Program-made: the position numbers and the translations under genes
Assembly (NCBI GenBank): GCA_945883815.1
Contig: CAMCYJ010000032.1
Location: forward strand, 1-33,741
DNA: 33,741 nt
DNA from: Akkermansia muciniphila
Lineage (GTDB): Bacteria > Verrucomicrobiota > Verrucomicrobiia > Limisphaerales > UBA9464
Reading direction: 5' to 3'
Notes under the pieces: model-generated
Databases searched by the model: none
What the model was told of the DNA's origin: nothing
What the model saw: the letters and a program-made list of their open reading frames with translations, nothing else
In this document: positions 11,682 to 28,735 of the stretch, piece after piece
Layout of the letters: each line of letters begins with the position of its first letter
How positions within the stretch are numbered: the stretch's first letter is position 1

Positions 11682-12245
11682 TTGAAACGGTGGACTGTCA
11701 TTCTGTTGTTCCTGATCGGCGGTGGAGGCATCGTCTGGTTTTGGCTGTCTCGGTACGAAGATCGGTTTGATCCACAAATCCGACGGGTCGCCCAGCATTA
11801 TCGCTTGCCCCCATCGCTGGTGAAGGCGGTGGTCTGGAAGGAAAGCCGCTTCGACCCATCAGTCCGAGGACGGGCCGGCGAAATCGGTCTCATGCAGGTG
11901 ACGGAGGTCGCCGCGCAAGAATGGGCGGATGCCCTCAAACTCTCCCGCTACTCCCATGAGCAAATCCTGGATCCGTCCACCAACTTGCACGCGGGATCCT
12001 TTTATTTGTCGAAGGTTCTCCAGAGGTATGCGGCGACAGACAATCCCACCGCTTATGCGCTGGCCGATTACAATGCTGGCCGACGGAATGTCCTGCGCTG
12101 GATGTCGGCCACCAACGCTCCCCATGCCCGCACCAACAGTGCCCAGTTCCTGGCGGCCATGACCTACCCCGGCACTCGGCAGTATGTGGAGCAAATCTTG
12201 GAGCGGCGGCGACGTTACGAGGCGGAGTTTGCTACCCGGCCTTGA
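11682..12245 (+). CDS. Membrane-anchored lytic transglycosylase (SLT domain)
   Basis: This enzyme should cleave peptidoglycan glycan strands to form 1,6-anhydro-MurNAc ends. The 187-residue protein starts at TTG (11682) with a single N-terminal membrane span (about 5-22), followed by an SLT/lysozyme-like domain. The catalytic glutamate is E54 in VWKESRFDP. The GEIGLMQV and YALADYNAG segments complete the active-site signature. It resembles the short Slt/MltC-like bacterial forms. Its 3' end overlaps the convergent flavodoxin-like gene by 31 bp. Confidence 0.9.
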   Translation: MKRWTVILLFLIGGGGIVWFWLSRYEDRFDPQIRRVAQHYRLPPSLVKAVVWKESRFDPSVRGRAGEIGLMQVTEVAAQEWADALKLSRYSHEQILDPSTNLHAGSFYLSKVLQRYAATDNPTAYALADYNAGRRNVLRWMSATNAPHARTNSAQFLAAMTYPGTRQYVEQILERRRRYEAEFATRP

Positions 12246-13012
12246 ACCAGCGGCTCGGGAAACAGCCCGGCAAAGGAGAGTGAGCGCGCCTCCGGCGGAT
12301 GGGCCGGGAACCCCAGCCGACGGGTCCAGCGCTCATAGGCCACACCAGGATCGCTCAAGGGCTCATTCATCCATCGGCACACATCGCCCACCTCTTCCTC
12401 CAAACGCGCTGCATCAGGAAAATCGAGATAATAGGACGAGTCGATGCCCAGATGGCGGGCCCAGCGCTCGCCGCTCGCCCGATCCGGTCGTGCGGCCCAC
12501 TGAACCAGGCAGGTCCGAGCCAACTGCCGCAGAAACCAGGCGTCGATCGGGTGGAACTCTCCATCTGGCATGGCTCGCTGTTGCATCCCGATCACCGTCA
12601 GTTTCTGGGCGAAGGTGAAGGTGCACGCTCCGCACCCCTGGAGCGATCGGAAGGTGTCCAGCAACGCCATCTCGCCGCCGGTATGCTGTCCGCCGGCCGT
12701 GGCGAACGCGGTCGCCAAAGTGCCCCAGAGTTGGAGGCCCCGCGTTAGTTCGAAGAATTTCCGGAGGTACCAGGGAGAGCCCTGGCCATGCACCGGAGTG
12801 GCCACCACCACCACATCGGCTCCGGTGAGGAGGGACTGCACTCGAGCGGCGTTGTCGATCGATGGCAAGGCCCACACCAGTTCACAAACCAGACCCGGGA
12901 AAGACACCGGATCGGCGGACTTTAGGCAGTGGACAAATCCCAGTGCTGCGCGGTGGCTGTCGTGGCGATCGGTGGCGGTCCCCGGCGAGAAATGCAGGAC
13001 ACGCACCGTCAT
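12215..13012 (-). CDS. Flavodoxin-like/NADPH-dependent FMN reductase-family protein
   Basis: The 265-residue protein has a flavodoxin-like alpha/beta core. A VVVVATPVHGQGSPWYLRKF strand-loop-helix resembles the flavin phosphate/ring-binding loop of the NAD(P)H-quinone reductase and WrbA group. A second loop is ATAFATAGGQHTGGE. The C-terminal third is not recognised. It is the last gene of the minus-strand operon: its ATG overlaps the stop of the binding-protein gene by 4 bases. It may supply reduced flavin or act as an oxidoreductase in the same pathway. Substrate and partner are unknown. Confidence 0.65.
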   Translation of the reverse strand: MTVRVLHFSPGTATDRHDSHRAALGFVHCLKSADPVSFPGLVCELVWALPSIDNAARVQSLLTGADVVVVATPVHGQGSPWYLRKFFELTRGLQLWGTLATAFATAGGQHTGGEMALLDTFRSLQGCGACTFTFAQKLTVIGMQQRAMPDGEFHPIDAWFLRQLARTCLVQWAARPDRASGERWARHLGIDSSYYLDFPDAARLEEEVGDVCRWMNEPLSDPGVAYERWTRRLGFPAHPPEARSLSFAGLFPEPLVQGRVANSAS

Positions 13013-13959
13013 GGCTGAAGGTCGAACGTCGCGATGTCGGAGACCTTGAGACGGGTGGCGGTGGTGGGCAGCTTATTGAAGTCGGCTACCGCCTGTGTCC
13101 AGGTTTCCCGGCGCATCCGGCCCATGCTGCCCGCTCCACCCTCGCGGGTGAGCATGGGCACCAACGCCTCCACCGTGCCCCGCTGATGGCGTTCATCGGT
13201 CCCGGGCACTGTGGCCACCACCATTCGGGCAATGGTGTCCGGCTCCCGGATCGCGGCCTCCCAACCGCGGCGCGACACCTCCAGGAAACGGCGCAGGAGC
13301 GGACTGTCCGATTTGAGGAACGCCTCGCTGGTGAAATACACCTGACCATACGCCGCGTAGCCCTCGTCATGGAGGTACAGAATTTGGATGTCGTGTCCCG
13401 CCTGCTTCAAAGCGACTCCCTCGTCGATGGAGTAGCCTTGCACGGCCGCATACCGTCCGCTGAGCAGTGGAGTCAAGTCATGGCCCACCACCTCGACCTC
13501 GACCTGCTGACGGCGGATGCCCGCGTGATTCAGGACATACTTCACTGCTTCATTGCCGTCGGCATGGACGCCGATGCGCTTTCCAATCAGGTCCTTCACG
13601 CTGCGAATGTTGGCGGACTTGAGGCTGAGCAAGCAGATGGGGGTGCCCTGAAGCATGGTGCCTATCGCCCGGATCGGCATGCCGGAGGAGCGCGCCTGCA
13701 GCAGGACACCACTCTCGACGCTGCCGATCCACCGAGGGTGATGCACCACATTGCTGACCACCCCTTCGTCTTTGGGGATGGGTCGCAGCGTCAGGTCGAT
13801 GCCGGCTTCCCGGTACCAACCCCGTTCTCGGGCCAGCAGGAGGCCGGCGAATTGGGCCGTGGGCTTCCAGTCGAGCTGGAAGGTGACGGGGACCGGATCG
13901 GCGGCACTGAGCCGCAGAACCCAGGCCAGCATGCAAAGGAATATCAGGTGGGGTTTCAT
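13009..13959 (-). CDS. NMT1/THI5-like ABC transporter substrate-binding protein
   Basis: This is a periplasmic solute-binding protein of the ThiY/NMT1 group, known to bind pyrimidine, purine or related heterocycles. ATG at 13959 opens a signal peptide (MKPHLIFLCMLAWVLRLSA, cleavage about residue 19). The family opening FQLDWKPTAQFAGLLLARER follows, then RIGVHADGNEAVKYVL. The protein has 316 residues. An alternative TTG at 13983 overlaps the permease stop (TTGA), matching the coupling style of its neighbours, so the start is uncertain. It sits with its permease and ATPase and should be their cognate binding protein. Confidence 0.9.
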   Translation of the reverse strand: MKPHLIFLCMLAWVLRLSAADPVPVTFQLDWKPTAQFAGLLLARERGWYREAGIDLTLRPIPKDEGVVSNVVHHPRWIGSVESGVLLQARSSGMPIRAIGTMLQGTPICLLSLKSANIRSVKDLIGKRIGVHADGNEAVKYVLNHAGIRRQQVEVEVVGHDLTPLLSGRYAAVQGYSIDEGVALKQAGHDIQILYLHDEGYAAYGQVYFTSEAFLKSDSPLLRRFLEVSRRGWEAAIREPDTIARMVVATVPGTDERHQRGTVEALVPMLTREGGAGSMGRMRRETWTQAVADFNKLPTTATRLKVSDIATFDLQP

Positions 13960-13979
13960 GGATACGGCTGTGAGGCGAC

Positions 13980-14771
13980 TCAATCGGCGTCGGTCTTCAT
14001 GGCTGACTCATGCCACTTCCGTAGGCAGAGCCATTCGAGGGTGGTCACCGTGAAGAAGAAGAGGAAGCCCAGCAGGCTGGCGGTCAGCACCAGCGCGAAG
14101 AGGTAGTCGGTTTGGAGTTGGCTGTTGGCGTAGGTGATCGAATAACCCAACCCGCCCTCTCCCACGGCATTGGAACTGGCAAAGAGTTCACCCGTCACCG
14201 CCCCGATCACCGAGATCCCCGCCGAGATGCGCAGGCCCACAAAGAGATGCGGCAGCGCATGGGGTAGTCGCAGTTTGAGCAGCTGCCGCGATCGGGAGGC
14301 ATTGGACATGACAAAGAGATCGATCAGGTTGCGAGGAACGCTGATGAGCCCTTGCGTGGTGTTGGCGATGATGGGGAAGAGACAAATGACGAAGGCCACC
14401 AGCATCACGCTGCGCAGGCCGGAGCCGAACCACATCAGGATTAGCGGCGCGATGGCCACGATGGGCACCGTCTGGAGCAAGATGGTATACGGGTAGAAAG
14501 ACCGCCGGATGAGTGGGCTCTGAGCGAAGAACAGAGCGATGATCACACCGCCGAGGATGCTCAGGAGATAACCCCCCCCCGCTTCCAAGGCGGTGATGCA
14601 AAAGGCGTTCCAGAGGGTCTGGTGTCGTTCAACCACCGCTCGCACGACCGCAGACGGGGGAGGCAACACGTAGGCAGGAATGGTGAACCAGCGACAGCTA
14701 AGGTCCCAGGCGGTGACCACCACCACAAACACCGCCAGTGGCCATGCCGCCTGAATCAGGAATTTCTTCAT
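13980..14771 (-). CDS. ABC transporter permease (ThiX/SsuC-type)
   Basis: The inner-membrane permease should form a homodimeric channel for the NMT1-type importer. Its 263 residues contain about six hydrophobic spans, starting with FLIQAAWPLAVFVVVVTAW. The binding-protein-dependent transport signature lies in the SNASRSRQLLKLRLPHALPH loop, the coupling helix that docks on the ATPase. The ATG at 14771 overlaps the ATPase stop by 4 bases (ATGA), so translation is coupled. Family-level identity is clear, but the transported solute is not. Confidence 0.93.
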   Translation of the reverse strand: MKKFLIQAAWPLAVFVVVVTAWDLSCRWFTIPAYVLPPPSAVVRAVVERHQTLWNAFCITALEAGGGYLLSILGGVIIALFFAQSPLIRRSFYPYTILLQTVPIVAIAPLILMWFGSGLRSVMLVAFVICLFPIIANTTQGLISVPRNLIDLFVMSNASRSRQLLKLRLPHALPHLFVGLRISAGISVIGAVTGELFASSNAVGEGGLGYSITYANSQLQTDYLFALVLTASLLGFLFFFTVTTLEWLCLRKWHESAMKTDAD

Positions 14772-15577
14772 GGATGTCCCGGGTTCAAGGGGTTCGAGGG
14801 AACTTGGACGGCACGCAGAGCGGCGCTGACTTCGCCCACCAGGCGTAGGTACTCCGGGGCGCTCCGCAAATCGGCGGTTCTCGGAAAGGGGAACGGGACG
14901 GGGATCTCGCGAGCGATCTGGCCCGGTTTGGCCCGAAGGACGAGGATGCGTGTAGAAAGGAAGACCGCTTCTGCGACGCTGTGCGTTACAAAGAAGGTGG
15001 TGAACTGGTCGTTCTCCCGCAGCCGCAGGACTTCCTCGTTGAGAAAATCCCGGGTCATCTCGTCCAGCGCGCCAAAGGGTTCATCCATGAGCAGGATCTT
15101 TGGTTGCGTGGCCAGCGCCCGTGCGATCGAAACCCGCATGCGCATGCCGCCGCTCAACTGGCGCGGATGAAGGTCGGCCACGTCGGAAAGGCCCACCAGC
15201 TCCAGCAGCGCAGTGGAGGTCTTGCGCCGTTGCGCTTCGGTGCTCTTGCCTTCCAGCTCCAGCCCCAGTTCGACATTGGAGCGGACCGTCCTCCAAGGCA
15301 GCAGAGTCGCATCTTGGAAGATGAACGACATGATCTCCCGGGCCGATTCGGGCAGCATGCCGTCAAGCCTCACCGAACCGGAACTCAGCCCGGACAAGCC
15401 CGCCAAGAGTCGCAACAGGGTGGATTTCCCGCAGCCGCTCGGTCCGATGAGTGAAATGAACTCGCCCCGCTCGGCCTGAAGCGAAATGCCATCCAGGACC
15501 GTCGCCCCGTTGGACCAACGCTTGGTGACCGAATCCAAGATGATGAACGGTGGTTGTGGCATGGCTGTGGGTGTCAT
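14768..15577 (-). CDS. ABC transporter ATP-binding protein (nitrate/sulfonate/thiamine-precursor type)
   Basis: This is the ATPase that powers the adjacent permease. It has Walker A GPSGCGKST, Q-loop FQDATLLPW, signature LSGGMRMRVSIARAL, Walker B ILLMDEPFGALDE and H-loop FVTHS. I take the ATG at 15577, giving 269 residues. It overlaps the stop of the CocE-type gene (ATGA at 15577-15574). The open frame to 15685 is antisense-like in composition and lies inside the upstream gene. Its relatives energise SsuABC, TauABC and ThiXYZ-type importers. Confidence 0.95.
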   Translation of the reverse strand: MTPTAMPQPPFIILDSVTKRWSNGATVLDGISLQAERGEFISLIGPSGCGKSTLLRLLAGLSGLSSGSVRLDGMLPESAREIMSFIFQDATLLPWRTVRSNVELGLELEGKSTEAQRRKTSTALLELVGLSDVADLHPRQLSGGMRMRVSIARALATQPKILLMDEPFGALDEMTRDFLNEEVLRLRENDQFTTFFVTHSVAEAVFLSTRILVLRAKPGQIAREIPVPFPFPRTADLRSAPEYLRLVGEVSAALRAVQVPSNPLNPGHP

Positions 15578-17349
15578 GTCAGGCCGCCTCCTCGGGATTC
15601 GATGTCGGCCTGCAAGGGCAGTTGAAGGCAGGACGGATGGTCCGGATCGTGGAGGAGTTGCTGCTGATTTTGGATCCAGTCCCACGAATCGGCGGCCTCG
15701 GGCGACACCGTCGAACCTGGATTTCGATCATACAGCGGGAAGGCACTGCCGCTGACGACTAAGCGCAGGCGTTCGCCGGGTGCGAAGACGCAGTGCGTGG
15801 GTTCGAGGTCAAACTCCCAGCACTGCACCCGATCCGGCTCCAGCCCCTTGGGACCGAAGAGCCAAGAGCCCCGGGCGATGCCCAGGCAGACGTTGTATGA
15901 GCGTCCATCCGGGAGCACTCGGACCAGTTTGGCCACCAGGTCAGCCGAGGCGGTCCGACTCGTGGCATGCAGGCTGACCCGGGGTCGTCCGGCGACGCGC
16001 ACGGCTTCAGTGAGAATCGGGCTGGTGTAGGCCAGGACATTGTTCATGGAGTCCTGGCGGTTCTGGATGAAGGGGCCCGGAGCCGCTCCGGGTCCGGGAG
16101 CGGCGGCCGGCACTTCCGGCTCGTAGACGAAACCGTCGCGCGGGCGCATTCCCGACGGAGGCTCGGGGCCCAGTCGCCCATCACCCTGGATGGAGTTGGC
16201 CCGTCCGTCGGAATCCAGGAACCACCGTTGCACAGCACGGGTGCCACCCGTCCGCTGAGGCCAGGAAGCCAGTTTATGCCATCGGTTTTCGCCCAGCGCG
16301 AAGGAACGCACCGGTGGCTCTTGCTCGAATTCGCCGGTGTCCTTGAGCCAGTGGTTGAACCAGCGCAGCAGCAGCCGGTCGGTGTCCAGGATCGCGTCGG
16401 GTCCGTGGTCCACTTCGCCGCAATAACGACTCCAGGGAATGTGGTTCCAGGGACCGGCAACCAGGTACTGCGGCGCCTTCGATTCGGCCCGCAGGCGTTG
16501 GTAGAGCTGCTCGCTGCCGTCGAGGTAGGTGTCGTACCAACCCCAAAGGTGCAGGCACGGGATTCGGATGCGGTCCATCCGCGTGCTCACATCGTGTCGA
16601 GCCCACCAAGGACCGGCGGCGCGGTGGGTGGTCCAATCGCGATGGTAGGTGGGCAGACCTCGGGCCGTGAGTTCGCCGATCCGGGAGTAGGGGGCCGCGG
16701 CCAAGAGCGCCGGAAACCGGGTGGCGGCCTCCTCCAGGTGGCGACTGGCCGACTTGAGCCGCCGCTTGCGGGCATCGCCGCGGAGCAGTTGCAGCGCCCA
16801 GCCGACACTCGAAGCGAGGCGGTAGGCCCCTTGATGGTAGAACCATCCGGAAAACAAATCGCCCGCCGTCTGCGCCGGGGCGATGCACTGCAGCGCCGCA
16901 GGTGCTTCAGCCGCCGCCAGGAGTTGGGTCAGCCCCTGATAGCTGAACCCATACATACCGATGCGCCCGTTGCATTCTGGGCGACCGGACAACCACTCGA
17001 TGGTGGCATGGCCGTCGCGCCCCTCATGCCGGAAGGGATAGAATTCGCCAGTGCTTTCTCCACGCCCGCGCACGTCCTGAATGACCACATTGTAGCCCTG
17101 GGCGGCAAACCAGGCCGGCTGGGCATACACCACCGTGCTGGCCACGGCCCGGCCATAGGGTTGACGCATCAGGATCGTGGGAGCCGGACCAGGTTGTGGC
17201 GGGTAGTAGTGGTCGGACACCAGACGGGTGCCATCGGCCAATCGGAAACGCACCCCTCGTTCCACGGTGACGCCAGATCCGACCTCCACACGGATGCCGG
17301 CAGCCGGACTCCGGCTCCGAGGACTTCGTGCTGGGGAACGATTCGCCAC
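15574..17349 (-). CDS. CocE/NonD-family serine hydrolase
   Basis: Members of this alpha/beta-hydrolase family (X-Pro dipeptidyl-peptidase S15 domain plus a C-terminal jelly-roll) cleave esters or amides, including cocaine and beta-lactam side chains. The 591-residue protein shows the nucleophile S136 in GFSYQG, the oxyanion tyrosine region RQPYGR, the acid in GWYDTYLDGS and the base in GPWNHIPW. The C-terminal PepX_C-like domain includes SADLVAKLVRVLPDG. No signal peptide is seen. GTG at 17349 follows the creatininase stop by 9 bases, with an aagaga Shine-Dalgarno-like site. Context suggests it hydrolyses an intermediate of the imported compound. Confidence 0.9.
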   Translation of the reverse strand: MANRSPARSPRSRSPAAGIRVEVGSGVTVERGVRFRLADGTRLVSDHYYPPQPGPAPTILMRQPYGRAVASTVVYAQPAWFAAQGYNVVIQDVRGRGESTGEFYPFRHEGRDGHATIEWLSGRPECNGRIGMYGFSYQGLTQLLAAAEAPAALQCIAPAQTAGDLFSGWFYHQGAYRLASSVGWALQLLRGDARKRRLKSASRHLEEAATRFPALLAAAPYSRIGELTARGLPTYHRDWTTHRAAGPWWARHDVSTRMDRIRIPCLHLWGWYDTYLDGSEQLYQRLRAESKAPQYLVAGPWNHIPWSRYCGEVDHGPDAILDTDRLLLRWFNHWLKDTGEFEQEPPVRSFALGENRWHKLASWPQRTGGTRAVQRWFLDSDGRANSIQGDGRLGPEPPSGMRPRDGFVYEPEVPAAAPGPGAAPGPFIQNRQDSMNNVLAYTSPILTEAVRVAGRPRVSLHATSRTASADLVAKLVRVLPDGRSYNVCLGIARGSWLFGPKGLEPDRVQCWEFDLEPTHCVFAPGERLRLVVSGSAFPLYDRNPGSTVSPEAADSWDWIQNQQQLLHDPDHPSCLQLPLQADIESRGGGLT

Positions 17350-19585: not shown

Positions 19586-19633
19586 GCGGTATGAAAAAAT
19601 GAGGAGGAGGGGGCAGGGCAGCAGAGATTAGCC

Positions 19634-20176: not shown

Positions 20177-20318
20177 CGCAAGGACCTGTTCAGCACACGG
20201 TGTTCCACTCGACTTCGGGTCGTGACAACTGAGCGAAAACAACCTGTGAGGGGTCGTCCTCCGGTCTTGCTGAGGGGAGTCGCAACGAGTTCGGCGTCCG
20301 TTCTCTGCCCACGATGGA

Positions 20319-20346
20319 CAAAACAAAACACCGCTGCAGCAGCGGT
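20319..20346 (-). terminator. Hairpin with T-rich tail: candidate attenuator in the deaminase operon leader
   Basis: On the minus strand, accgct-gctgc-agcggt (20346-20330) is followed by gttttgttttgt. The 6-bp stem and interrupted T-run make a modest intrinsic terminator about 155 bp upstream of the deaminase start. If functional, it would control all eight downstream genes. Confidence 0.35.
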
Positions 20347-20562: not shown

Positions 20563-20578
20563 TGGCATGAGGTTTGCA
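20563..20578 (+). promoter_or_regulatory. Sigma-54 (RpoN) promoter upstream of the TonB receptor gene
   Basis: The 16-base sequence TGGCATGAGGTTTGCA agrees at every defined position with the sigma-54 consensus TGGCAYRNNNNTTGCW. The -24 GG is at 20564-20565 and the -12 GC at 20576-20577, exactly 10 bases apart. The predicted start point is near 20589, leaving a 60-base leader before the receptor ATG. A sigma-54 activator gene lies at 27299 in the same locus. Confidence 0.75.
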
Positions 20579-20648: not shown

Positions 20649-23087
20649 ATGAAACCCTCCCTATGGTTGCCGATCCGAATCGGATCGCTTGCCGCCCTTG
20701 CTCTGGCATCGGGCGGCTCAGCCCTGGCACAAAGTGCTGGTTCCACAAATGTTCTGGACAAGGTCGTCGTCGAAGGCTTGTCCCTCGAAGAGACGGTTTT
20801 GCCGACGGCTCGTCCGGTCGAGTCGGTCATGGGTGACGACCGCAGTATTTTGGAGACCCCGCGCTCGGTGTCGCTCGTGACCAAGGCCCAGATGGAAGCC
20901 CGCGCGATTTCGCGTGCCACCGATTTCAATCAGTACTCCCCGGGCGTTTACACCCCGTCCCGTTACGGTTTGGCCAACGTGCCAGTCATACGCGGTGACC
21001 TTTCGGAAATTTACCAAAACGGTCAGCGGACGATTTACAGCCGCAATTCCATGCTCGCCAGCTTCAACGGCGTGGAGGCCATGGACATCGTCAAGGGACC
21101 CGGTTCCGCGGTTTACGGCCCCCAAGGACAAGGCCCGGGCGGTTATGTGAACTTCGTCACCAAGCTTCCTTACTTTGATGGTTTCCACGGAGAAGTGCTG
21201 AGCCGCTGGGGAACCTACGTTCCCGGTGGTCAGAGCTACTTCAACCCGGAGTGGGGCATCGATTTCGGCGGACCCATCAACGACAAGTTGGCCTTCCGTG
21301 TGAGCTACCTCGGACGCGAGGCCGAGGGCTACTACCGGAACGTGAAGGACAACACGCAGGATATCTTCACGGCCCTGACCTGGAAGGCCACTGAGAAGCT
21401 GACCGTCGACTGGAACGCCCAGTTCTACACATCCCGTTTCAACGAGGTCATCGGTATCAACCGTGTCACCCAGGAGTTGATTGATGACTGGCTGTACATC
21501 GCCGGCCCAGTGCTTCCCAACAACCGCTTCGGCGACCCGCTCACGTCCATTGGCAGGTTCGGCCAGAACGCCAACTTCGCGCTGCTCAACACCAACCTCG
21601 CCACGCGGGTGAAGGTTTATCCGTGGCAGACCATCAATGCCCCGTTCGACAGCGCGGCGGGCCAGAAGTTCTCTTCGCAGCTCATCGCCAATTACCAGAT
21701 CAACGACTTCGGAAAAATCGTCAACCGGACCTATGGCGAGACCATGGAGTCCCGCAAGGCCTCGGGTTATGGCTATACCGAATGGGTGCCGGAAAACTGG
21801 ATGGCCAACAACCGTTCGGAGCTCCACTACGAAATCACGCCGGCTGTCGCCAATTATGAGCTGCCCATCAAGACCATCAGCGGTGTGGACTTGCGTTACC
21901 AGTCGCTCGTGTCCTATCAGGATTTCGGTGTCGAACCGTTCTTCCTCTACGACGTCACCCAGCCGCCTTCAACGTTCCGGTTGCCTCCCACCCCGCTGGT
22001 GACCACCTACGGCGGAAGTTCACTCATGGTGCCGGGTGCTCCGGGCTACGGCTCGAACGGGTTTGGAGCGGGCGATCAGAATTCCGAGATCGCTCAGAGC
22101 GGCTTCTTCACCCAGTGGGACATGAAGCTGCACGACAAGTTCTCCATCATCGCTGGTGGCCGTGGCGACCTCATCGGTGCCCAGGCCAAGAGTCCGGAGT
22201 ACGTCGGCAAGGCTGCCGGTTCGAACTACAATGTCTCCACCGATGTCTTCAACACCTCGGTCTTCATCAGCGGTATCTACAAATGGACGCCAGTCCTCAC
22301 CAGCTACGCCACTTACAACGTGGTCAATGCCATTCAGGGCAGTGCGAATTTCGGCGGCGTGAACGCCACCGGCAACACCCGCTCGGCGCTCGAGAAGTCG
22401 CTCTCGACCGAGAGCGAGCTGGTCGAGTTCGGCTCCAAGGCCAGCCTTCTGGACAACAAGGTGTTCCTGAGCGCTTCCGTCTTTCAGCAGACCCGTCAGG
22501 CGCCTCAGCTCGTTGGTGACCCGATCGGCATCGAGACCATGGGCTTGGAGTTGGAGTCCTTCTACCAGCCCAACCGCAACTTCAACGCCAGCGCCAACTT
22601 CACCTTCCAGAACGCGGAGCAGGACGACTTCGGCTATCAGCAGACCTACAATTATCGGGATGGTTACCCGGTGGGATTCTTGGTGGACGGCACCTCGGGC
22701 ACCGGTAGCGGATCACCCAATTACAACAGCCGTGGACCCAACACCCCGGCGCGCGCCTTCGGCAAGACTCGGGCGGCCAGTGTGCCTCAGGTGATGTTCA
22801 ACTCCTACGTCACCTATCAGTTGGACAACGGCTTTGGCGCCAGCTTCGGCCCGCAAGTCACCGGTGAACAGTGGCAGAACCAAGAAGGCTCGCTGCGCAT
22901 CCCCATGCAGTACGTCATCAACGCCTTCGTGTTCTACCGCCAGCCGAAGTGGGACGTGCAAATCAACTTCTTCAACATTACCGACCAGCGGAACTGGACT
23001 TCCATCGATCCGAGTTTCGCCGGCAATGACGTGATTTATCCGGAACAACCGTTCCGGATCAGTGGTCAGATCCGTTTCCGGTTCTGA
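20649..23087 (+). CDS. TonB-dependent outer-membrane receptor
   Basis: This outer-membrane beta-barrel takes up a scarce ligand using TonB-ExbBD energy. ATG at 20649 opens a Sec signal peptide (MKPSLWLPIRIGSLAALALA, cleavage about GSALAQ). A plug domain follows (VVVEGLSLEETVLPTA through IVKGPGSAVYGPQG), then a long barrel ending in the aromatic terminus QIRFRF. The mature size suits the siderophore/vitamin-receptor class (812 residues in total). The 14 codons upstream of 20649 lack signal character. A sigma-54 promoter precedes the gene and a terminator follows. Ligand unknown; the linked importers suggest a heterocycle rather than a siderophore. Confidence 0.93.
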   Translation: MKPSLWLPIRIGSLAALALASGGSALAQSAGSTNVLDKVVVEGLSLEETVLPTARPVESVMGDDRSILETPRSVSLVTKAQMEARAISRATDFNQYSPGVYTPSRYGLANVPVIRGDLSEIYQNGQRTIYSRNSMLASFNGVEAMDIVKGPGSAVYGPQGQGPGGYVNFVTKLPYFDGFHGEVLSRWGTYVPGGQSYFNPEWGIDFGGPINDKLAFRVSYLGREAEGYYRNVKDNTQDIFTALTWKATEKLTVDWNAQFYTSRFNEVIGINRVTQELIDDWLYIAGPVLPNNRFGDPLTSIGRFGQNANFALLNTNLATRVKVYPWQTINAPFDSAAGQKFSSQLIANYQINDFGKIVNRTYGETMESRKASGYGYTEWVPENWMANNRSELHYEITPAVANYELPIKTISGVDLRYQSLVSYQDFGVEPFFLYDVTQPPSTFRLPPTPLVTTYGGSSLMVPGAPGYGSNGFGAGDQNSEIAQSGFFTQWDMKLHDKFSIIAGGRGDLIGAQAKSPEYVGKAAGSNYNVSTDVFNTSVFISGIYKWTPVLTSYATYNVVNAIQGSANFGGVNATGNTRSALEKSLSTESELVEFGSKASLLDNKVFLSASVFQQTRQAPQLVGDPIGIETMGLELESFYQPNRNFNASANFTFQNAEQDDFGYQQTYNYRDGYPVGFLVDGTSGTGSGSPNYNSRGPNTPARAFGKTRAASVPQVMFNSYVTYQLDNGFGASFGPQVTGEQWQNQEGSLRIPMQYVINAFVFYRQPKWDVQINFFNITDQRNWTSIDPSFAGNDVIYPEQPFRISGQIRFRF

Positions 23088-23105: not shown

Positions 23106-23143
23106 GGCCCCCGGCTGTGGTGTGTGCGGCCGGGGGCCTTTTT
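23106..23143 (+). terminator. Rho-independent terminator after the TonB receptor gene
   Basis: ggcccccggc (23106-23115) pairs perfectly with gccgggggcc (23129-23138) across a 13-base loop, followed by T5 (23139-23143). It separates the receptor gene from the downstream binding-protein set. Confidence 0.9.
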
Positions 23144-23212
23144 CAGAGTTGAACCCATGAAAACCCTGCATGGTTCCGCCCAAAATGTCCGGTTTTTCCG
23201 CGATGCGTTGAC

Positions 23213-23228
23213 TGGGGTTGGCCTTGCA
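23213..23228 (+). promoter_or_regulatory. Possible second sigma-54 promoter (partial match)
   Basis: TGGGGTTGGCCTTGCA has the GG-N10-GC spacing and a perfect TTGCA -12 element, but the -24 element is TGGGG, not TGGCA. It lies between the terminator and the next gene. The predicted start point (about 23239) is only about 8 bases from the ATG I chose, which weakens the case. Confidence 0.3.
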
Positions 23229-23246
23229 CAGCCGGTGACACCAGCG

Positions 23247-24293
23247 ATGAGAATGCTGTTTCTATCGATCTTCCTGCTGTGGGCGGGTTGTTCCCCGAAG
23301 GAGTCCGGGTCGCCGTCGGCCTCGGCGACTCCCTCCGAACCGGTTCTCAATTTCATCCACGACTGGATCCCCGAACCCGAACACGGCGGATACTACGCGG
23401 CAGACCGACTGGGCCTTTGGAAGGCCGAAGGGGTGGCCGTCCGGGTACTGGTCGGGGGGCCCAATTCTGAAATCGAGAAACGCGTGGCGTTGGATCCGTT
23501 CGGCCTGGGAATTGTCCGCGGTGACGCCGTCTTTGTAGCCGTGGAGCGGGGCTTGCCGGTGGTCGCGGTGAATGCCTACTTCCAGCATGATCCGCAGGGG
23601 ATCATGGTACGCGACGATTCTCCGGTGAAGACCTTCGCCGATTTGGAGAATCGGGACATCGCCATGCAAATCGGTGCGACCTGGCTGCTGTACCTCCAGA
23701 AGAAATACGCGCTGAGCAAGGTCCGGGTCCGGCCGGTGACCGGCAACGTGGCCAACTTCGTCAAGGATCCCGGCTGGATCACCCAAGCCTACCCAACGAG
23801 TGAGCCGTACTACGCACTGAAGGAGGGGGTGAAATCCCGGGTGCTTCAAATCAGCGAGTCGGGGTTTGATCCGTACCGGGTCATCATCGCCAACCGCCAA
23901 CTGGTGGAGAAGCATCCAGAACTGGTGGCCCGCTTCAGCCGCGGCGCGTATCGCGGTTGGCAGGAGTACTACCGCAGTCCACAGCCCATCCACGATTACC
24001 TTCGTTCCATTTCGCCGACCATGGAGGACGGTGGCATGCGTTTCAGTTACGTGGCCATGCGCCGGTTGCGTCTGTCGGAAGGAGATCCTTCTCGGGCTGA
24101 AACCATGGGTGCGGTGGATTTGGAGCGTTGGCGATCTCTCGGGTTCATCCTGAAAGACCTGGGTGTGATCCAGTCCGTGCCTCCGTTGGAGTCGGTGGTC
24201 TCGACCGCCTTCACGCCCAAGGCTCTGGGCGTGGATCCCACGTTGCCGCCCCCTTTCTGGACGGACGCGCCCACTCCGTCGCCCAAGCCGTAG
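23247..24293 (+). CDS. NMT1/THI5-like substrate-binding lipoprotein
   Basis: This solute-binding protein resembles the one at 25715 throughout. Shared blocks include PEHGGYYA, GGPN, QHDPQG, SPVKTFADLE, TSEPYYA and SGFDPYRV. ATG at 23247 opens a lipoprotein-type signal (MRMLFLSIFLLWAGC, acylated C15). W at -3 makes the lipobox imperfect, so a standard signal peptide is possible. The protein has 348 residues. Upstream ATGs at 23124 and 23157 place the hydrophobic segment internally, and the first lies within the terminator, so they are rejected. No permease lies on this strand; it may serve the importer at 13980-15577. Confidence 0.88.
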   Translation: MRMLFLSIFLLWAGCSPKESGSPSASATPSEPVLNFIHDWIPEPEHGGYYAADRLGLWKAEGVAVRVLVGGPNSEIEKRVALDPFGLGIVRGDAVFVAVERGLPVVAVNAYFQHDPQGIMVRDDSPVKTFADLENRDIAMQIGATWLLYLQKKYALSKVRVRPVTGNVANFVKDPGWITQAYPTSEPYYALKEGVKSRVLQISESGFDPYRVIIANRQLVEKHPELVARFSRGAYRGWQEYYRSPQPIHDYLRSISPTMEDGGMRFSYVAMRRLRLSEGDPSRAETMGAVDLERWRSLGFILKDLGVIQSVPPLESVVSTAFTPKALGVDPTLPPPFWTDAPTPSPKP

Positions 24294-24321: not shown

Positions 24322-25698
24322 ATGGCCATGACCCCTTCCCACCGGACTCTCCTCAAGAACATTGGCTATCTGGTCACCATGGATCCGGATCGCCGTGTCC
24401 TCCGGAAGGCGTGGTTGTTGGCCGAGGATGGCGTGATTCGTTCCGTTGGGACCGGCCCAGCGCCGCGGGTGGCCAAGGCCACGGTGGTGGATGCCCGAGG
24501 CGGCATCGCGTTGCCGGGGCTCATCAACACCCACCACCACATGTTCCAGAACTTGGCGCGGGCCTTCGAGCCCATCGCCAGTTTGCCACTCTTGCCGTGG
24601 CTGGCCGGGCACATGCCGTTGTGGCGTCATTTCAATCCCGACGACTTGTATGTGGCCACCCAAGTGGCCTGTGCCGAGTTGATGCTCAGCGGTTGTACCC
24701 TGACCAGTGACCACCACTACTTGTTTCCCCGCGATGGCAGCGCCGGGATGCTCGATGCCGGATTCAACGCGGCGGCGGCCATGGGCATCCGCTACGTCGG
24801 CTGCCGGGGCTCGGTGAATTTACCCAGCGACATCATGCCCGACTGGGCCTGTCAGGACCTCGATGTAATCTTGGCCGATTGTCAGCGATTGCACGACCGG
24901 TTCCATCAGCGGGGGACGGGGGCGATGTCGCAGGTGGCCTTCGCGCCGTGCACGGTCTTTGGGTGCTCGGGCGAGCATTACCGACAATCGGCCCGGCTGG
25001 GTCGTTCGCTCGGGGTCCGTCTGCACACCCATTGCGGCGAGACCATTCCCGAGAACCAAGACGCGGTGAAGGTACTCGGATCCCGACCCTTTCCGTACAT
25101 GGCCCGACACGAATGGGAAGGCGAGGATGTCTGGCTGGCCCACGGCATCCACTTCAACGACCGCGAGGTCGCCCGCCTGACCAAGACCCGCACCGGCGTA
25201 GCCCACTGCCCGTGTTCCAACATGCGATTGGGATCGGGTGTCTGCCGGGTCAACGACCTTCGCCGGGGCGGCAGTCCGGTGAGCTTGGGCGTCGATGGTT
25301 CGGCCTCCAACGACTCGGGTCACTTGCTCAACGAAGCCCGGTTGGCGCTGCTGCTCACTCGGGTCGTTCACGGGGCCGAAGCGATGACGCCGGAATCGGC
25401 GCTAGAAATGGCCACGCTCGATGGCGCCCGGAATCTCGGACGGCTTGCCGATCTGGGATCCCTGGAACCGGGTAAATGCGCCGATGTGGCGGTGTTCCCG
25501 CTGGAGGACCTCTTCAGCAATGGTGCCCACAATCCAGTGCATGGCCTGGTGCTCTGCCATGCGCGTCAGGTGGACACGCTGTTAGTCCACGGGCAGGTGC
25601 GCGTTCGTGAGGGACAATTGGTAGGAGTGGACCTGCCGAAACTCTTGGCCAAGCACCGCAAAGTGGCCCGCCGCTACCACGACGGCGCGGTGAAATGA
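24322..25698 (+). CDS. Amidohydrolase-superfamily deaminase, 8-oxoguanine deaminase/AtzB-like
   Basis: The 458-residue protein belongs to the TRZ/ATZ and guanine-deaminase group of metal-dependent amidohydrolases, which remove amino or alkylamino groups from purines or s-triazines. Metal and catalytic residues visible are H71-x-H73 (NTHHHMFQNL), the HxxE motif in LHTHCGE, the histidine in WLAHGIHF, and the aspartate in LGVDGSASND. An N-terminal beta-sandwich and the closing GSLEPGKCADVAVF strand are typical. It sits between two similar binding-protein genes (gaps of 28 and 16 bp). 8-Oxoguanine deaminase is the closest named function, but substrate choice within this group cannot be read safely from sequence. 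Confidence 0.88.
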   Translation: MAMTPSHRTLLKNIGYLVTMDPDRRVLRKAWLLAEDGVIRSVGTGPAPRVAKATVVDARGGIALPGLINTHHHMFQNLARAFEPIASLPLLPWLAGHMPLWRHFNPDDLYVATQVACAELMLSGCTLTSDHHYLFPRDGSAGMLDAGFNAAAAMGIRYVGCRGSVNLPSDIMPDWACQDLDVILADCQRLHDRFHQRGTGAMSQVAFAPCTVFGCSGEHYRQSARLGRSLGVRLHTHCGETIPENQDAVKVLGSRPFPYMARHEWEGEDVWLAHGIHFNDREVARLTKTRTGVAHCPCSNMRLGSGVCRVNDLRRGGSPVSLGVDGSASNDSGHLLNEARLALLLTRVVHGAEAMTPESALEMATLDGARNLGRLADLGSLEPGKCADVAVFPLEDLFSNGAHNPVHGLVLCHARQVDTLLVHGQVRVREGQLVGVDLPKLLAKHRKVARRYHDGAVK

Positions 25699-25714
25699 CT
25701 TTCGAAATCTCCGA

Positions 25715-26710
25715 ATGAAATCCATGCACGGCCTGATCGATGTTTTCGCTCGTTGGAGCTTCCTGTGGATCGCCCTGGTTTCCATGGCGGCCGATCGCGC
25801 ACCCGTGCGACTCATCACCGACTGGTATCCCCAGCCCGAACACGGAGGCTTCTACTACGCGCTGATCAAGGGCTACTACCGGGAGGTTGGGCTCGATGTG
25901 GATATTTTGCCCGGAGGACCCAATGCGTTTCCGATCCAACGCATCGCCACCAAGGCGGCCGAGTTCGGCATGGGCAGCACCGATGATGTGCTTTTAGCCA
26001 ATGATCGCGGCATCCCGATCGTAGCCGTTGCGGCCACGCTGCAGCACGATCCGCAGGCGCTCATGGTGCACGAATCGTCGCCGGTGAAGACCTTCGCCGA
26101 TCTGGAAGGGCGCACCGTGGCAGTGACCCCCGGCACCGCATGGTTTCCGTATTTGATCCAGCGCTACGGCCTCAAGACAACCCGTGAGCGCGCCCACAAT
26201 TTCAGCATCGGATCGTTCCTGCGGGATCCGGATTACATCCAGATGTGCTTCGTCACCAGCGAACCCTTCTTCGCGGCTGAGGCCGGCGTGAAGGCCCGCG
26301 TCCTGCTCATCAGTGGCAGCGGTTTCGATCCGTACCGGGTCTTCTTCACGCGGCGCGAATTTGCGACCGAGCATCCCGATCGAGTCCGGGCCTTCGTGAC
26401 GGCGAGTGTGCGAGGTTGGAGGGGCTACATGGAGGATCCCACCGAGGTGCACGCCGAGATTCGCCGGCGCAATCCCGAGCTCACCCCGGCCAAGATGAAC
26501 TTCAGCCATCAGGCGTTGAAGCAGGGGTCTTTCCTGAACGGTGATCCGGCCAAGGGCGAGGCGGCCGGCCGCCTGTCCGAGGCCCGGTGGAAATTTCAGT
26601 TCGATACACTCAAGAAACTCGGCGTCCTGCGCGGAAAATTCGATCTGGCGACGGCCTGGACCGGCGAGTTCTGCAACGCCACCAACACCCCCACAGCCAC
26701 CCGACCATGA
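25715..26710 (+). CDS. NMT1/THI5-like substrate-binding protein (paralogue of the one at 23247)
   Basis: The 331-residue periplasmic binding protein has a Sec-type signal (FARWSFLWIALVSMAADR region) rather than a lipobox. The core matches its neighbour: DWYPQPEHGGFYYA, PGGPNAF, LQHDPQALMV, SPVKTFADLEGR, VTSEPFFA and SGFDPYRV. The pair probably arose by duplication around the amidohydrolase gene. The stop overlaps the next ATG (ATGA at 26707-26710). Together with the protein at 13009, the locus has three binding proteins of this family but only one permease/ATPase pair. Confidence 0.9.
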   Translation: MKSMHGLIDVFARWSFLWIALVSMAADRAPVRLITDWYPQPEHGGFYYALIKGYYREVGLDVDILPGGPNAFPIQRIATKAAEFGMGSTDDVLLANDRGIPIVAVAATLQHDPQALMVHESSPVKTFADLEGRTVAVTPGTAWFPYLIQRYGLKTTRERAHNFSIGSFLRDPDYIQMCFVTSEPFFAAEAGVKARVLLISGSGFDPYRVFFTRREFATEHPDRVRAFVTASVRGWRGYMEDPTEVHAEIRRRNPELTPAKMNFSHQALKQGSFLNGDPAKGEAAGRLSEARWKFQFDTLKKLGVLRGKFDLATAWTGEFCNATNTPTATRP

Positions 26711-27231
26711 TTGAACGTTTCTCCAAGATTACCTTGCTGGCCGCGGTCGCGCTGTTCATGGCGCTGATCGCCTTCAACAACATCACCGACTACGGATCCA
26801 ATTTCGACTTCGTGCAGCATGTGCTCTCGATGGACACTACCTTTCCGGGCAACCAGTTGAAGTGGCGGGCCATCAGCACGCCCGCCCTGCACCACGCCTT
26901 CTACTGGACGATCATCGCGTGGGAGGGGCTCTCGGGCTTGGGCATTGCGGCCGGGGCACTGGCCTTGTGGCGGGCGCGCGGGCAATCGGCAGCGGTGTTC
27001 AACGCGGCCAAGTCGCTGGCCGTGGGCGCCCTCACGGTCAATTTGGTGTTGTGGTTCACGGCCTTTCTCATGGTGGGCGCCGAATGGTTCTTGATGTGGC
27101 AATCTCAGGTGTGGAACGGCCAGGCGGCCGCCACGCGCATGTTCACGTGCGTCGGCCTGGTGCTGCTCTTCCTGAAGACCCCGGACACCGATCCGGTTCC
27201 GCCTTCGGGTCGCGACGGTTCGGCCGAATAG
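26707..27231 (+). CDS. DUF2165-type small integral membrane protein
   Basis: The 174-residue protein has about four hydrophobic segments. It carries the blocks NNITDYGSNFDFVQHVLSMD and TFPGNQLKWRAI, which I associate with the DUF2165 family of bacterial membrane proteins of unknown function. ATG at 26707 overlaps the binding-protein stop by 4 bases, so it is translated with the import set. Its role could be membrane transport or a membrane accessory to it, but nothing in the sequence proves this. The C-terminal tail (TDPVPPSGRDGSAE) is hydrophilic. Confidence 0.75.
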   Translation: MIERFSKITLLAAVALFMALIAFNNITDYGSNFDFVQHVLSMDTTFPGNQLKWRAISTPALHHAFYWTIIAWEGLSGLGIAAGALALWRARGQSAAVFNAAKSLAVGALTVNLVLWFTAFLMVGAEWFLMWQSQVWNGQAAATRMFTCVGLVLLFLKTPDTDPVPPSGRDGSAE

Positions 27232-27232
27232 C

Positions 27233-27256
27233 GTTTTTGGAGCGCCTCCGAAAAAC
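27233..27256. repeat. Inverted repeat between the DUF2165 and regulator genes
   Basis: gtttttggag (27233-27242) pairs with ctcc-g-aaaaac (27246-27256), with one bulged g and a 3-base loop. The T-tract is on the 5' side and the A-tract on the 3' side, the wrong polarity for a plus-strand terminator. It may be an operator or a transcript-processing hairpin. Confidence 0.45.
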
Positions 27257-27298
27257 AGGTCGCTTCAAGCTTGGGCTTGGTGGCGGCTTGAGGCTTTG

Positions 27299-28735
27299 AT
27301 GAGCACCATGACTTCCGAGGTGCTCACGGGTCTTTCAGTGCTGGTGCTCGAGGATGAGCCGCTTTGGCGACGGCATCTGGTGGCCAGCCTGGAACGGTGG
27401 GGCGCCGAAGTGACCGCGGTTGATTCGATGGCCGGGGCTCGCAAGGCCTTGGGTGCAGCGAATTTCGACTTCGCCCTGATGGACGTGAACTTGCCCGACG
27501 GTCTGGGGCCGGATCTGCTTCGCGACAAGTCCATTCCGGCTCACACGGGCGTGGTCATCATGACCGCCGAGGGCGGGATTTCCGGGGCGGTGGAGGCCAT
27601 CCGGTTGGGCGCTCTCGATTACCTCACCAAGCCGTTCGAGCCCGAGGCCTTGGCGCTGACCCTCCGCCGAGCCCGATCCACGCAGGCGGGACGTCGCGTG
27701 GCTGAGCAGCAGCGATCGGGCAGCCCGGGCTTTTTCTTCGGAACCGCTCTGTCGGGTCTCAAGACGCAAATTGAGCGGATTCTCGCGGCCGACCGCCGAA
27801 TGGAGACCCACTTACCGCCGGTGCTCATCGAAGGCGAGACGGGCACCGGCAAGACTTCTCTGGCCCGTCGGATCCATCGCGAAGGTCCTCGGGCTGACGG
27901 GCCGTGGGTGGAGATCAATTGCTCGGCGATTCCCGAGCATTTGGCCGAGTCGGAACTCTTCGGCCACGAGAAGGGGGCATTCACCGATGCCCGCAGCACT
28001 CGCATCGGGCTTTTCGAGGCGGCCCACGGGGGCACCTTGTTCCTCGACGAACTCAGCAGTTTGTCCCTGCCCATTCAGGCCAAGTTGCTGACCGTGCTGG
28101 AAGACCACCGCATCCGTCGCGTTGGCGGCTCGAAAGACATCGCCGTGGACGTCCGTGTCATTGCGGCCAGCAATCAAGGCCTTCGCCAACTCGTCGCTCA
28201 GGGAAGCTTCCGTTCCGACCTTCTCCATCGACTGGATCTCTTCCGTCTGTCGATCCTGCCATTGCGAGATCGGGGCGCCGACCTCTTGCCGTTGGCGGCC
28301 TCCCTCATGGAAGGCATCGCATCGCGCCACCGTTTGCCGGTGCGATCGATTTCAGAGACGGGAAGGCGTCGGCTTCTGGGTTATGGCTGGCCGGGCAATG
28401 TCCGGGAACTGGCCCACGAATTGGAGCGGTCCCTCGTGTTCGAAGATGGCGATGCGTTGAACTTCGATTCCCTGTTGGGAGCCGGCGGTGGGACTGCGGA
28501 GAACGGCACGTCCATGGGCATGACTCCCGTTGGAGTACCGGCCGGATCCGCCGACTCCTGGTGGAATCCCGCGTTCCAATTCCCGGATCAAGGCTTCGAC
28601 CTCGAGGCCGCCATCTTGCACCTCATTCAACAAGCGCTGCAGCAATCCGCAGGCAATGTGTCAGCGGCGGCCCGCCGCCTAGGCGTCTCCCGGGATTACC
28701 TCCGATACCGGCTCGGACCCAAGGGCGGCCATTGA
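27299..28735 (+). CDS. Sigma-54-dependent response regulator, NtrC family
   Basis: The protein has three parts. The receiver domain has an acidic EDE patch, the phospho-acceptor aspartate in LMDVNLP, T in VIMTAEG and K in LTKPFEP. The AAA+ domain has Walker A GETGTGKT (179-186), the sigma-54 contact loop GAFTDA (226-231) in place of GAFTGA, and Walker B GGTLFLDEL. The C-terminal Fis-type helix-turn-helix is AARRLGVSRDYLRYRL. ATG at 27299 gives 478 residues; an adjacent TTG is possible. No sensor kinase gene adjoins. The sigma-54 promoter at 20563 makes the receptor and catabolic genes its likely targets. GAFTDA occurs in other family members and need not abolish activation. Confidence 0.93.
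   Translation: MSTMTSEVLTGLSVLVLEDEPLWRRHLVASLERWGAEVTAVDSMAGARKALGAANFDFALMDVNLPDGLGPDLLRDKSIPAHTGVVIMTAEGGISGAVEAIRLGALDYLTKPFEPEALALTLRRARSTQAGRRVAEQQRSGSPGFFFGTALSGLKTQIERILAADRRMETHLPPVLIEGETGTGKTSLARRIHREGPRADGPWVEINCSAIPEHLAESELFGHEKGAFTDARSTRIGLFEAAHGGTLFLDELSSLSLPIQAKLLTVLEDHRIRRVGGSKDIAVDVRVIAASNQGLRQLVAQGSFRSDLLHRLDLFRLSILPLRDRGADLLPLAASLMEGIASRHRLPVRSISETGRRRLLGYGWPGNVRELAHELERSLVFEDGDALNFDSLLGAGGGTAENGTSMGMTPVGVPAGSADSWWNPAFQFPDQGFDLEAAILHLIQQALQQSAGNVSAAARRLGVSRDYLRYRLGPKGGH

Follow-up and report, generated by a model that had tools for sequence, protein, structure and literature searches.

A conserved divergent gene locus of lake Verrucomicrobia that may import and break down a pteridine

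The window analyzed here, a stretch of 33,741 nucleotides, is one entire contig of its genome (G000:C32). It contains eight genes on the minus strand that diverge from plus-strand genes for a TonB receptor, NMT1-type proteins, an amidohydrolase, a DUF2165 protein, and an activator. Using family profile searches, we found every family named in a preliminary description of this DNA where that description had placed it, while an Rfam scan at the gathering threshold gave three tRNAs and nothing else. The features are listed below, with the genes of each half in order of transcription.

19634 to 20176, minus strand: deaminase of the cytidine-deaminase fold at the head of the minus operon (HAE...PCPMC; PF00383, E 1.6e-19)
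18167 to 19585, minus strand: FAD enzyme (FAD_binding_4) homologous to 6v42 (331 bits)
17359 to 18147, minus strand: creatininase-family amidohydrolase (EQHG..LP..TD motif; PF02633, 222 bits)
15574 to 17349, minus strand: CocE/NonD (S15) hydrolase (TIGR00976, 371 bits, cutoff 66)
14768 to 15577, minus strand: ABC transporter ATPase (PF00005)
13980 to 14771, minus strand: ABC transporter permease (BPD_transp_1, PF00528)
13009 to 13983, minus strand: nmtA, NMT1/THI5-type binding protein (PF09084, 146 bits)
12215 to 13012, minus strand: flavodoxin-fold/FMN-reductase-like protein at the end of the minus operon (PF03358, 24.1 bits)
20192 to 20207, minus strand: sigma-54 -24/-12-like site TGGAACACCGTGTGCT before the minus operon, conserved in 18/18 loci
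20563 to 20578, plus strand: sigma-54 site TGGCATGAGGTTTGCA before the plus operon, the sole exact match in the window
20649 to 23087, plus strand: TonB-dependent receptor (PF07715 plug)
23124 to 24293, plus strand: nmtB, NMT1-type binding protein (PF09084, 102 bits)
24322 to 25698, plus strand: amidohydrolase (Amidohydro_1) of the 8-oxoguanine deaminase/AtzB group (NF006055, 506 bits, cutoff 532)
25715 to 26710, plus strand: nmtC, NMT1-type binding protein of the type in proteobacterial clusters (PF09084, 134 bits)
26707 to 27231, plus strand: DUF2165 small membrane protein (PF09933, 199 bits)
27296 to 28735, plus strand: NtrC-like response regulator/sigma-54 activator (PF00072, PF00158, and HTH_8)

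The 4-base overlaps and short gaps described for the minus operon are borne out by the coordinates. Overlaps of 4 bases with ATG starts join cocE to the ATPase gene, the ATPase gene to the permease gene, and nmtA to the gene for the flavodoxin-like protein. The permease gene and nmtA also overlap by 4 bases provided that nmtA starts at TTG 13983, its start codon being either this TTG or an internal ATG. The upstream junctions are gaps of 48, 19, and 9 bases. For the deaminase, the open frame covers 19634 to 20326, the coding score points to 20176 as the likely start, and an ATG lies at or near this position in 16 of 18 aligned loci, as judged by eye and irrespective of frame. An overlapping 249-aa ORF (19582 to 20331) was dropped as the deaminase gene; it has no family match and looks like a shadow frame.

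Several proteins fall short of narrower family definitions. The creatininase-family protein passes the Pfam superfamily threshold and scores below those for creatininase (TIGR04448, 80 bits versus 235) and MftE (TIGR03964, 128 bits versus 172); true creatinine degradation was rejected on the former cutoff. The CocE/NonD hydrolase reaches at best 223 bits to cocaine esterase, and we know of no role of CocE on pterins. The label flavodoxin-like passes only just, because the PF03358 score of 24.1 bits compares with a cutoff of 24; the gene is kept at the same operon end in relatives L019 to L024. The closest models for the TonB receptor are siderophore receptors, all below cutoff, and siderophore uptake was rejected on this basis, although missed cutoffs do not exclude it. 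NMT1 domains had been described as binders of purine- or pyrimidine-like rings, but membership in this family does not fix such ligands; the best NCBIfam models here are SsuA-type sulfonate binders, again all below cutoff. The nmtB translation shows a lipobox-like WAGC, and its product is likely a lipoprotein starting at an internal ATG near 23247. The activator is below the cutoffs of 25 named models among the matches listed.

Both deaminases resemble guanine-type enzymes. The best PDB matches of the cytidine-deaminase-fold enzyme are guanine/guanosine deaminases, with at most 62 bits. The best NCBIfam model for the amidohydrolase is 8-oxoguanine deaminase (NF006055), for which its 506.1 bits are 26 short of the cutoff of 532. 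Among PDB entries, it scores 357 bits to 3hpa, 324 to 7ww2, and 228 to 2paj, which we take to be an isoxanthopterin deaminase structure. By eye, it has the motifs in which the catalytic Gln, Glu, His, and Asp described in PMC13054789 should lie.

The gene set is genuine, rightly placed, and conserved. The 93 loci (L019 to L111) came to 23 distinct lake-clade contigs once duplicates (L019, L021, L023, L024, and L025) were removed and L051 (a 58% paralogue) and more distant loci were left out. Both halves are adjacent in 16, the minus half is alone in 1 (L022), and the plus half is alone in 6, of which L036, L040, L042, and L052 end at the contig edge and are therefore not informative. Thus, 16 of the 19 contigs from related lake Verrucomicrobia that are informative have the two halves divergent and adjacent. 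In the three exceptions (L045, L046, and L022, from two genomes, because G303 and G224 give identical coordinates for L046 and L022), the halves are apart yet in the same genome. The arrangement recurs in relatives at 42 to 99% protein identity, which argues that it is more than chance; the preliminary description had named a lack of conservation as what would refute its interpretation, which thus passes this test. DUF2165 is also present in class-level relatives (L028 to L030), and the activator gene adjoins the locus in only four relatives (L033, L034, L050, and L052).

Among the 11 genomes listed for the family of the window's genome, 8 have the FAD enzyme, and the same 8 have the amidohydrolase, a formamidase (at least 63% identity), and a GTP-cyclohydrolase-II-like paralogue. 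In the three genomes without the FAD enzyme, no amidohydrolase reached E 1e-60 and any formamidase matches were weak; RidA at 62% is nevertheless present in one of them. We note that these counts, like those of loci, are not independent because the genomes and loci compared are related. In some relatives, the plus operon is extended by RidA and formamidase genes (the extension seen by eye, the pair also tested). In the window's genome, both are on other contigs; the locus is therefore not self-contained, contrary to what had been proposed.

The minus-side sigma-54-type site, with at most two mismatches, is present in all 18 distinct loci (window included), 74 to 80 bases upstream of where codon 66 of the 230-aa frame aligns; sequences shuffled at first order gave a mean of 0.2 loci and a maximum of 2. 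The plus-side site (at most two mismatches, no more than 200 bases from the start of the TonB gene) was found in 11 of 17 distinct loci, counting the window (22 loci scanned with duplicates), and not in L020, L038, L043, L047, L049, and L057. Across the whole window, the two-mismatch pattern is not enriched (8 sites versus 13.5 expected). Sites before both halves and the adjoining NtrC-like activator suggest that the locus is probably under sigma-54 control.

The FAD enzyme, judged from homology, gives the strongest clue to the substrate. By sequence, the solved structure nearest to it is 6v42 (331 bits versus 65 for the next; ~40% identity), and its predicted model superimposes on 6v42 with TM scores of 0.86/0.88 at 39% identity, the next-best fold match having 0.71/0.73 at 19%. 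By both measures, the similarity is far above that to other FAD_binding_4 enzymes; glycolate/lactate oxidation was rejected, as such enzymes trail at 19% identity or less. The 6v42 entry title, our sole source for its function, describes a flavin oxygenase "involved in folate catabolism"; a literature search for 6V42/6V43 and folate catabolism, with most subscription papers beyond reach, did not find the structure's paper. Proteins of Rhizobium (L115) and Kaistia (L063 and L077) form a group with 6v42 at 66 to 68% identity, and the window's enzyme is outside this subclade, in a verrucomicrobial clade of its own with ~40% identity to 6v42.

The FAD enzyme matched 141 plasmid records, of which six regions were read. 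At E 1e-50, a homologue is present in 5 of 11 genomes reached through loci, Variovorax boronicumulans having none; at E 1e-60, it is present in one of six Variovorax genomes. The Rhizobium and Kaistia clusters of 6v42 kin encode the FAD enzyme, a homologous ABC importer, an NMT1-type protein, a creatininase-family protein, a CodA-type amidohydrolase, a flavodoxin-like protein, and RidA. Kaistia clusters, read by homology since simple gene calling was poor on some loci, include two amidohydrolases 41 to 44% identical to the window's. The window shares the ABC ATPase, permease, NMT1-type, and creatininase-family proteins with these clusters, and lacks RidA and CodA-type genes; its ATPase is 45 to 51% identical to five plasmid-cluster ATPases, and NmtC is 31 to 37% identical to their binding proteins. 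In L113 and L117 (Klebsiella), a CodA-type amidohydrolase gene is followed by RidA, and an L117 amidohydrolase scores 673 bits to 2paj. The six cluster amidohydrolases match each other (L113 and L115 tested as CodA-like), and the window's amidohydrolase matches L117_amido0 alone and none of the six. By these cluster sequences, rather than Arad3529 itself, the window contains no CodA-type pterin deaminase, while class-level relatives L028 to L030 carry a CodA-like amidohydrolase.

That the locus serves N-heterocycle catabolism is well supported, and a pteridine is the likely substrate, probably used as food or nitrogen source. Specifically, we consider the chances about even that it is an import and catabolism unit, probably sigma-54 controlled, for a pteridine (a pterin or folate breakdown product), and a verrucomicrobial variant of a module shared with Proteobacteria. 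The TonB receptor would bring the compound across the outer membrane, and the NMT1 proteins would pass it to the ABC importer. CocE may cut off a side chain, and one or both deaminases would strip the 2-amino group, converting a pterin to the lumazine type. The FAD enzyme would then oxidize the second ring, a step for which the flavodoxin-like protein might donate electrons, and the creatininase-family enzyme would open a ring lactam. RidA and formamidase, encoded elsewhere, may finish the fragments.

A pteridine is favored because the nearest structure of the FAD enzyme, by sequence and fold, is 6v42, because clusters of 6v42 kin also hold the importer, an NMT1-type protein, a creatininase-family protein, and a deaminase, and because the L113 and L117 amidohydrolase/RidA pairs resemble the Variovorax pterin deaminase context, and an L117 amidohydrolase scores highly to 2paj. 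Co-occurrence of FAD enzyme, amidohydrolase, and formamidase in 8 of 11 family genomes favors a single unit. The pteridine reading is weakened by the separate clade and ~40% identity to a structure whose function comes from an entry title, by an amidohydrolase nearer 8-oxoguanine deaminase/AtzB structures than 2paj, and by the lack of a CodA-type deaminase in the window and of linkage to RidA and formamidase. RidA in a genome lacking the FAD enzyme, loci adjoining pyrimidine genes, the plus-side site missing in 6 of 17 loci, and the activator adjacent in few also count against it. Of the preliminary interpretation, conservation and the listing of pterins among possible substrates hold up, whereas self-containment, the NMT1 ligands, and an s-triazine do not. 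The s-triazine pathway was rejected as unlikely because AtzB groups with natural guanine-type hydrolases (PMC13054789), making this similarity common to them.

Purine scavenging is a less probable alternative. Here, the imported compound would be a guanine-type base (8-oxoguanine, N2-methylated guanine, or the like), which the two guanine-deaminase-like enzymes would deaminate and the FAD and creatininase-family enzymes would oxidize and open. A purine would also fit the deaminases, since the amidohydrolase is nearest 3hpa and an AtzB/8-oxoguanine deaminase entry and the second enzyme nearest guanine deaminases; the amidohydrolase group also holds N2,N2-dimethylguanine hydrolases (PMC13054789). 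The GTP-cyclohydrolase-II-like paralogue is carried by the same 8 of 11 genomes, and in G073 it lies near adenine deaminase, adenosine deaminase, and permease-family genes. However, the 8-oxoguanine deaminase model is missed by 26 bits, 6v42 is labeled folate catabolism, and the proteobacterial partners (RutR-like, RidA, and CodA-type) give no hint of purines.

Breakdown of a pyrimidine (uracil/thymine-like or thiamine-pyrimidine) or another small N-heterocycle by an alternative route is unlikely. Proteobacterial clusters contain RutR-like TetR regulators (PF08362 in L112 and L114; TIGR03613 in L112 at 115 bits versus a cutoff of 368), and L117 has a RidA that matches RutC weakly (41 bits versus a cutoff of 169). 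In G181, genes for a PreA-like dihydropyrimidine dehydrogenase (396 bits versus a cutoff of 335), a dihydropyrimidinase (536 versus 393), an amidase of the hydantoinase/carbamoylase family, and an NCS1 permease border the locus, and G116 is similar by eye. Yet these genes look sufficient without the locus and flank it in just 2 of 8 genomes (flanks by eye), both deaminases are guanine type, and 6v42 points elsewhere. A loose neighborhood of unrelated transport and hydrolase genes without common substrate, to which the separated halves in 3 of 19 contigs and the rarely adjacent regulator might point, is very improbable given that separated halves still share one genome, that co-occurrence is 8/8 versus 0/3 genomes, and that both halves have sigma-54-type sites upstream, in the window as in many of its relatives.

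Plants and microbes produce pterins, folate among them, and the fate of the ring after deamination is little described. If the substrate is indeed a pteridine, lake Verrucomicrobia might, as a tentative extension, have a dedicated route for dissolved pteridines from TonB receptor to ring cleavage, with guanine-deaminase-type and cytidine-deaminase-fold enzymes replacing the CodA type and a VAO-fold FAD enzyme and creatininase-family enzyme opening the ring; this route would supply missing steps after deaminated folate. The locus and its proteobacterial counterparts form a small enzyme set that can be assayed singly, and predict candidate pteridine receptors and binding proteins. Were the substrate a purine, the FAD and creatininase families would still gain a new role.

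Our literature search, with most subscription papers beyond reach, turned up no account of precisely this gene set or cluster, in agreement with the preliminary description; a related setting is nevertheless known from the 6v42 homologue and proteobacterial plasmid sets. Variovorax sp. F1 degrades folic acid by carboxypeptidase G and a pterin deaminase of 399 aa, which resembles Arad3529 and whose gene is followed by a conserved endoribonuclease gene (PMC9513972). Similarities are a deaminase for the pterin 2-amino group and, in L113 and L117, a RidA-type endoribonuclease gene adjoining the deaminase gene; the main text of that study lacks the words FAD, creatinin-, transporter, oxidoreductase, and gene cluster, leaves the fate of the deaminated products open, and raises the question of whether bacteria break down pteroic and deaminopteroic acid, and by what means (PMC9513972). 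The scores to 3hpa and 7ww2 liken the amidohydrolase to the 8-oxoguanine deaminase/AtzB/N2,N2-dimethylguanine hydrolase group, but it is below that deaminase's cutoff and its context is not a plain purine operon. The proteobacterial clusters resemble the Rut pathway in the RutR-like regulator and RutC-like RidA, both below Rut cutoffs, but have a different flavoenzyme family and no RutA annotated in the six regions read. Unlike clusters of 6v42 kin, the window has CocE, DUF2165, three NMT1 proteins, an in-unit TonB receptor, and a sigma-54 activator; GuaD-type and cytidine-deaminase-fold enzymes replace the CodA type, RidA is unlinked, the FAD enzyme is in a separate clade, and the flavodoxin-like proteins give no BLAST match to each other. 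What the window has in common with 6v42/6v43 and the Rhizobium and Kaistia clusters is the FAD fold (39 to 40% identity), the ABC importer, and NMT1-type, creatininase-family, deaminase, and flavodoxin-like proteins.

The locus at 12215-28735 is a real, conserved catabolic locus for an N-heterocycle. Family searches confirmed every gene named in the preliminary description, with two qualifications concerning the minus-strand operon. The flavodoxin-like gene scores 0.1 bit above the Pfam cutoff, and the first gene lies in the frame listed below rather than in an overlapping 249-aa ORF. In three places in this operon, ATG-started genes overlap by 4 bases, and a fourth such overlap exists if the gene for the NMT1-type binding protein NmtA starts at TTG 13983. 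The source genome (3.96 Mb, 189 contigs, ~91% complete) contributes the window as one complete 33.7-kb contig. Among public genomes, those most closely related to the window are Verrucomicrobia MAGs; according to the record titles, many are named after lakes or ponds and a few otherwise. The individual features are as follows.

19634-20326, minus strand, frame containing the first gene of the operon, with a cytidine-deaminase zinc motif
28785-29969, branched-chain-type binding protein, adjoining the next two genes
30129-31385, aminotransferase-like gene (PhnW/AGT-like by eye), convergent with the next gene
31382-31771, RbsD/FucU-family gene (PF05025)

The arrangement of the last two genes is also found in L050, the locus of a relative.

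In a class-wide search (E 1e-30), the FAD enzyme was detected in 14 of 286 genomes: 8 of the 11 listed for the family to which the window belongs, plus 6 that are more distantly related. The amidohydrolase was found in the same 8 family genomes and not in the other 3 at E 1e-60. The 8-versus-3 split holds for a formamidase of at least 63% identity as well, two of the 3 giving weak matches, while RidA of at least 61% identity is present in the 8 FAD-bearing genomes but also in 1 of the other 3; the family genomes and loci compared are related, and these counts are not independent. When the window's proteins were used to read 93 loci, the lake clade accounted for 23 distinct contigs, 19 of which have the relevant flank. 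The two halves are divergent in 16 of these 19 contigs and apart in the remaining 3 (two genomes), where the same genome holds both halves in each case. Five genomes have an amidohydrolase locus without an adjoining FAD gene (L036, L040, L042, L045, and L046), and all five have the FAD gene elsewhere; a sixth genome in that search, reached via the paralogue L051, was G206 again by coordinates. Contrary to the earlier proposal, the locus is not self-contained. RidA and formamidase genes come after the DUF2165 gene in L045 and L046 (by eye) and adjoin each other in G073, where the families were tested. Some relatives carry an amidase gene between the deaminase and TonB genes (L019:11524-12918, PF01425 tested; L043:4628-5989), and in others this interval is 1.4-2.2 kb.

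The locus is probably co-regulated. Each of the 18 distinct loci has a minus-strand GG-N10-GC site (≤2 mismatches) before the deaminase gene, 74-80 bases away from one and the same codon in the alignment, compared with a mean of 0.2 and a maximum of 2 in first-order shuffles. The only exact sigma-54 consensus in the window lies 70 bases before the TonB ATG, and a looser pattern occurs no more often than expected (8 sites versus 13.5). On the TonB side, a site with ≤2 mismatches is located within 200 bases of the estimated start in 11 of 17 distinct loci, and none was found within these limits in L020, L038, L043, L047, L049, and L057. The window's activator has receiver, AAA+ sigma-54, and Fis-type HTH domains; because it adjoins the locus in only four relatives (L033, L034, L050, and L052), it is no fixed part of the locus.

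By sequence, the nearest solved protein to the FAD enzyme is 6v42/6v43 (331 bits; next, 65 bits), whose function label is the entry title, "flavin oxygenase with cofactor bound involved in folate catabolism." A predicted model (14 sequences, mean pLDDT 83) aligns to 6v42 with TM 0.86/0.88 at 39% identity; lactate-dehydrogenase-type relatives come next at 19% identity. In a 40-sequence tree that includes some duplicates and has flagged long branches, 6v42 clusters with proteins of Rhizobium and Kaistia (66-68% identity), apart from the Verrucomicrobia, which form a clade of their own.

The FAD enzyme matched 141 plasmid records, of which we read six regions (L112-L117, in this order: Comamonadaceae, Pantoea, Leisingera, Rhizobium, Salipiger, and Klebsiella). 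In each of them, homologues of the FAD enzyme (38-41%), creatininase-family protein (31-41%), permease (32-38%), and NmtC-type binding protein (31-37%) are grouped. All six also encode RidA and a further amidohydrolase; these second amidohydrolases belong to a single family and proved CodA-like in the two cases tested (L113 and L115). A homologous ABC ATPase (45-51%) lies alongside in 5 of 6 in an incomplete gene table, a flavodoxin-like reductase in 4, and a TetR regulator in 3, with a RutR-type domain in both tested; BLAST gave no match between the window's flavodoxin-like protein and those of the plasmid clusters. Kaistia has two additional amidohydrolases, 41-44% identical to the window's. 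The Klebsiella region (L117) has an extra divergent operon encoding another binding protein (31% identical to NmtC) and an amidohydrolase with 673 bits to 2paj, which we take to be an isoxanthopterin deaminase structure. L117 is from plasmid record NZ_CP084170.1 of a blood isolate, and the cluster lies alongside a 2OG-Fe(II) oxygenase gene. We read the locus as the verrucomicrobial form of a module that homology links to folate catabolism.

The 2-amino-4-oxo-pyrimidine ring is common to guanine and pterin, and the best-fitting chemistry would begin with removal of its 2-amino group. The FAD enzyme would then oxidise the second ring, the creatininase-family enzyme would open the lactam, and RidA and formamidase would clean up the fragments; the CocE-type hydrolase may cleave a side chain. 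We put the probability of a pteridine substrate at about one half, that of a purine at a quarter, and that of another heterocycle lower still, in view of the following evidence against a pteridine. The closest matches of the amidohydrolase and of the second deaminase are guanine-type enzymes, and a GTP-cyclohydrolase-II-like paralogue (at least 64% identity) has the same 8-versus-3 pattern and is near purine genes in G073, which would also suit a purine. A pyrimidine catabolic gene set flanks the locus in G181 and, by eye, G116, which would suit another heterocycle.

The paralogue (L155:10342-11853, own genome C10; L121:11093-12688; L130:8219-9793; 64-100% identity in the 8 family genomes with the FAD locus) lies within ~10 kb of that locus in 5. 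In some relatives it has a phosphoribosyltransferase-family protein nearby, along with one that has no family match (SIS-like by eye). The paralogue may act on a nucleotide whose ring is identical or related to the one that the locus targets. Diverging from the paralogue is a second TonB receptor gene, similar by eye to the window's receptor (L155:7837-10131, L158:5336-7753, and L130:9992-12337); next come an adenosine-deaminase-like gene (tested for PF00962 in L130) and, in some genomes, a nucleobase permease-family gene. This is possibly a sister locus for purine nucleosides.

Returning to the pteridine reading, the CodA-type enzymes from Comamonadaceae and Rhizobium are 37% identical, and other pairs with the Rhizobium enzyme 31-33%. 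In the class-level Verrucomicrobia loci L028-L030, a CodA-type enzyme adjoins DUF2165 near the FAD gene, roughly in the place of the 8-oxoguanine-deaminase-like enzyme in the window's clade. PMC9513972 describes a pterin deaminase of Variovorax sp. F1 (399 aa, 37% to Arad3529) that was cloned via a primer in a conserved downstream endoribonuclease gene, and leaves open in its Discussion the fate of the deaminated products. In L113 and L117, RidA comes next after the CodA-type enzyme, as the endoribonuclease gene does after the Variovorax deaminase, and these findings are consistent with the CodA-type enzymes being pterin deaminases.
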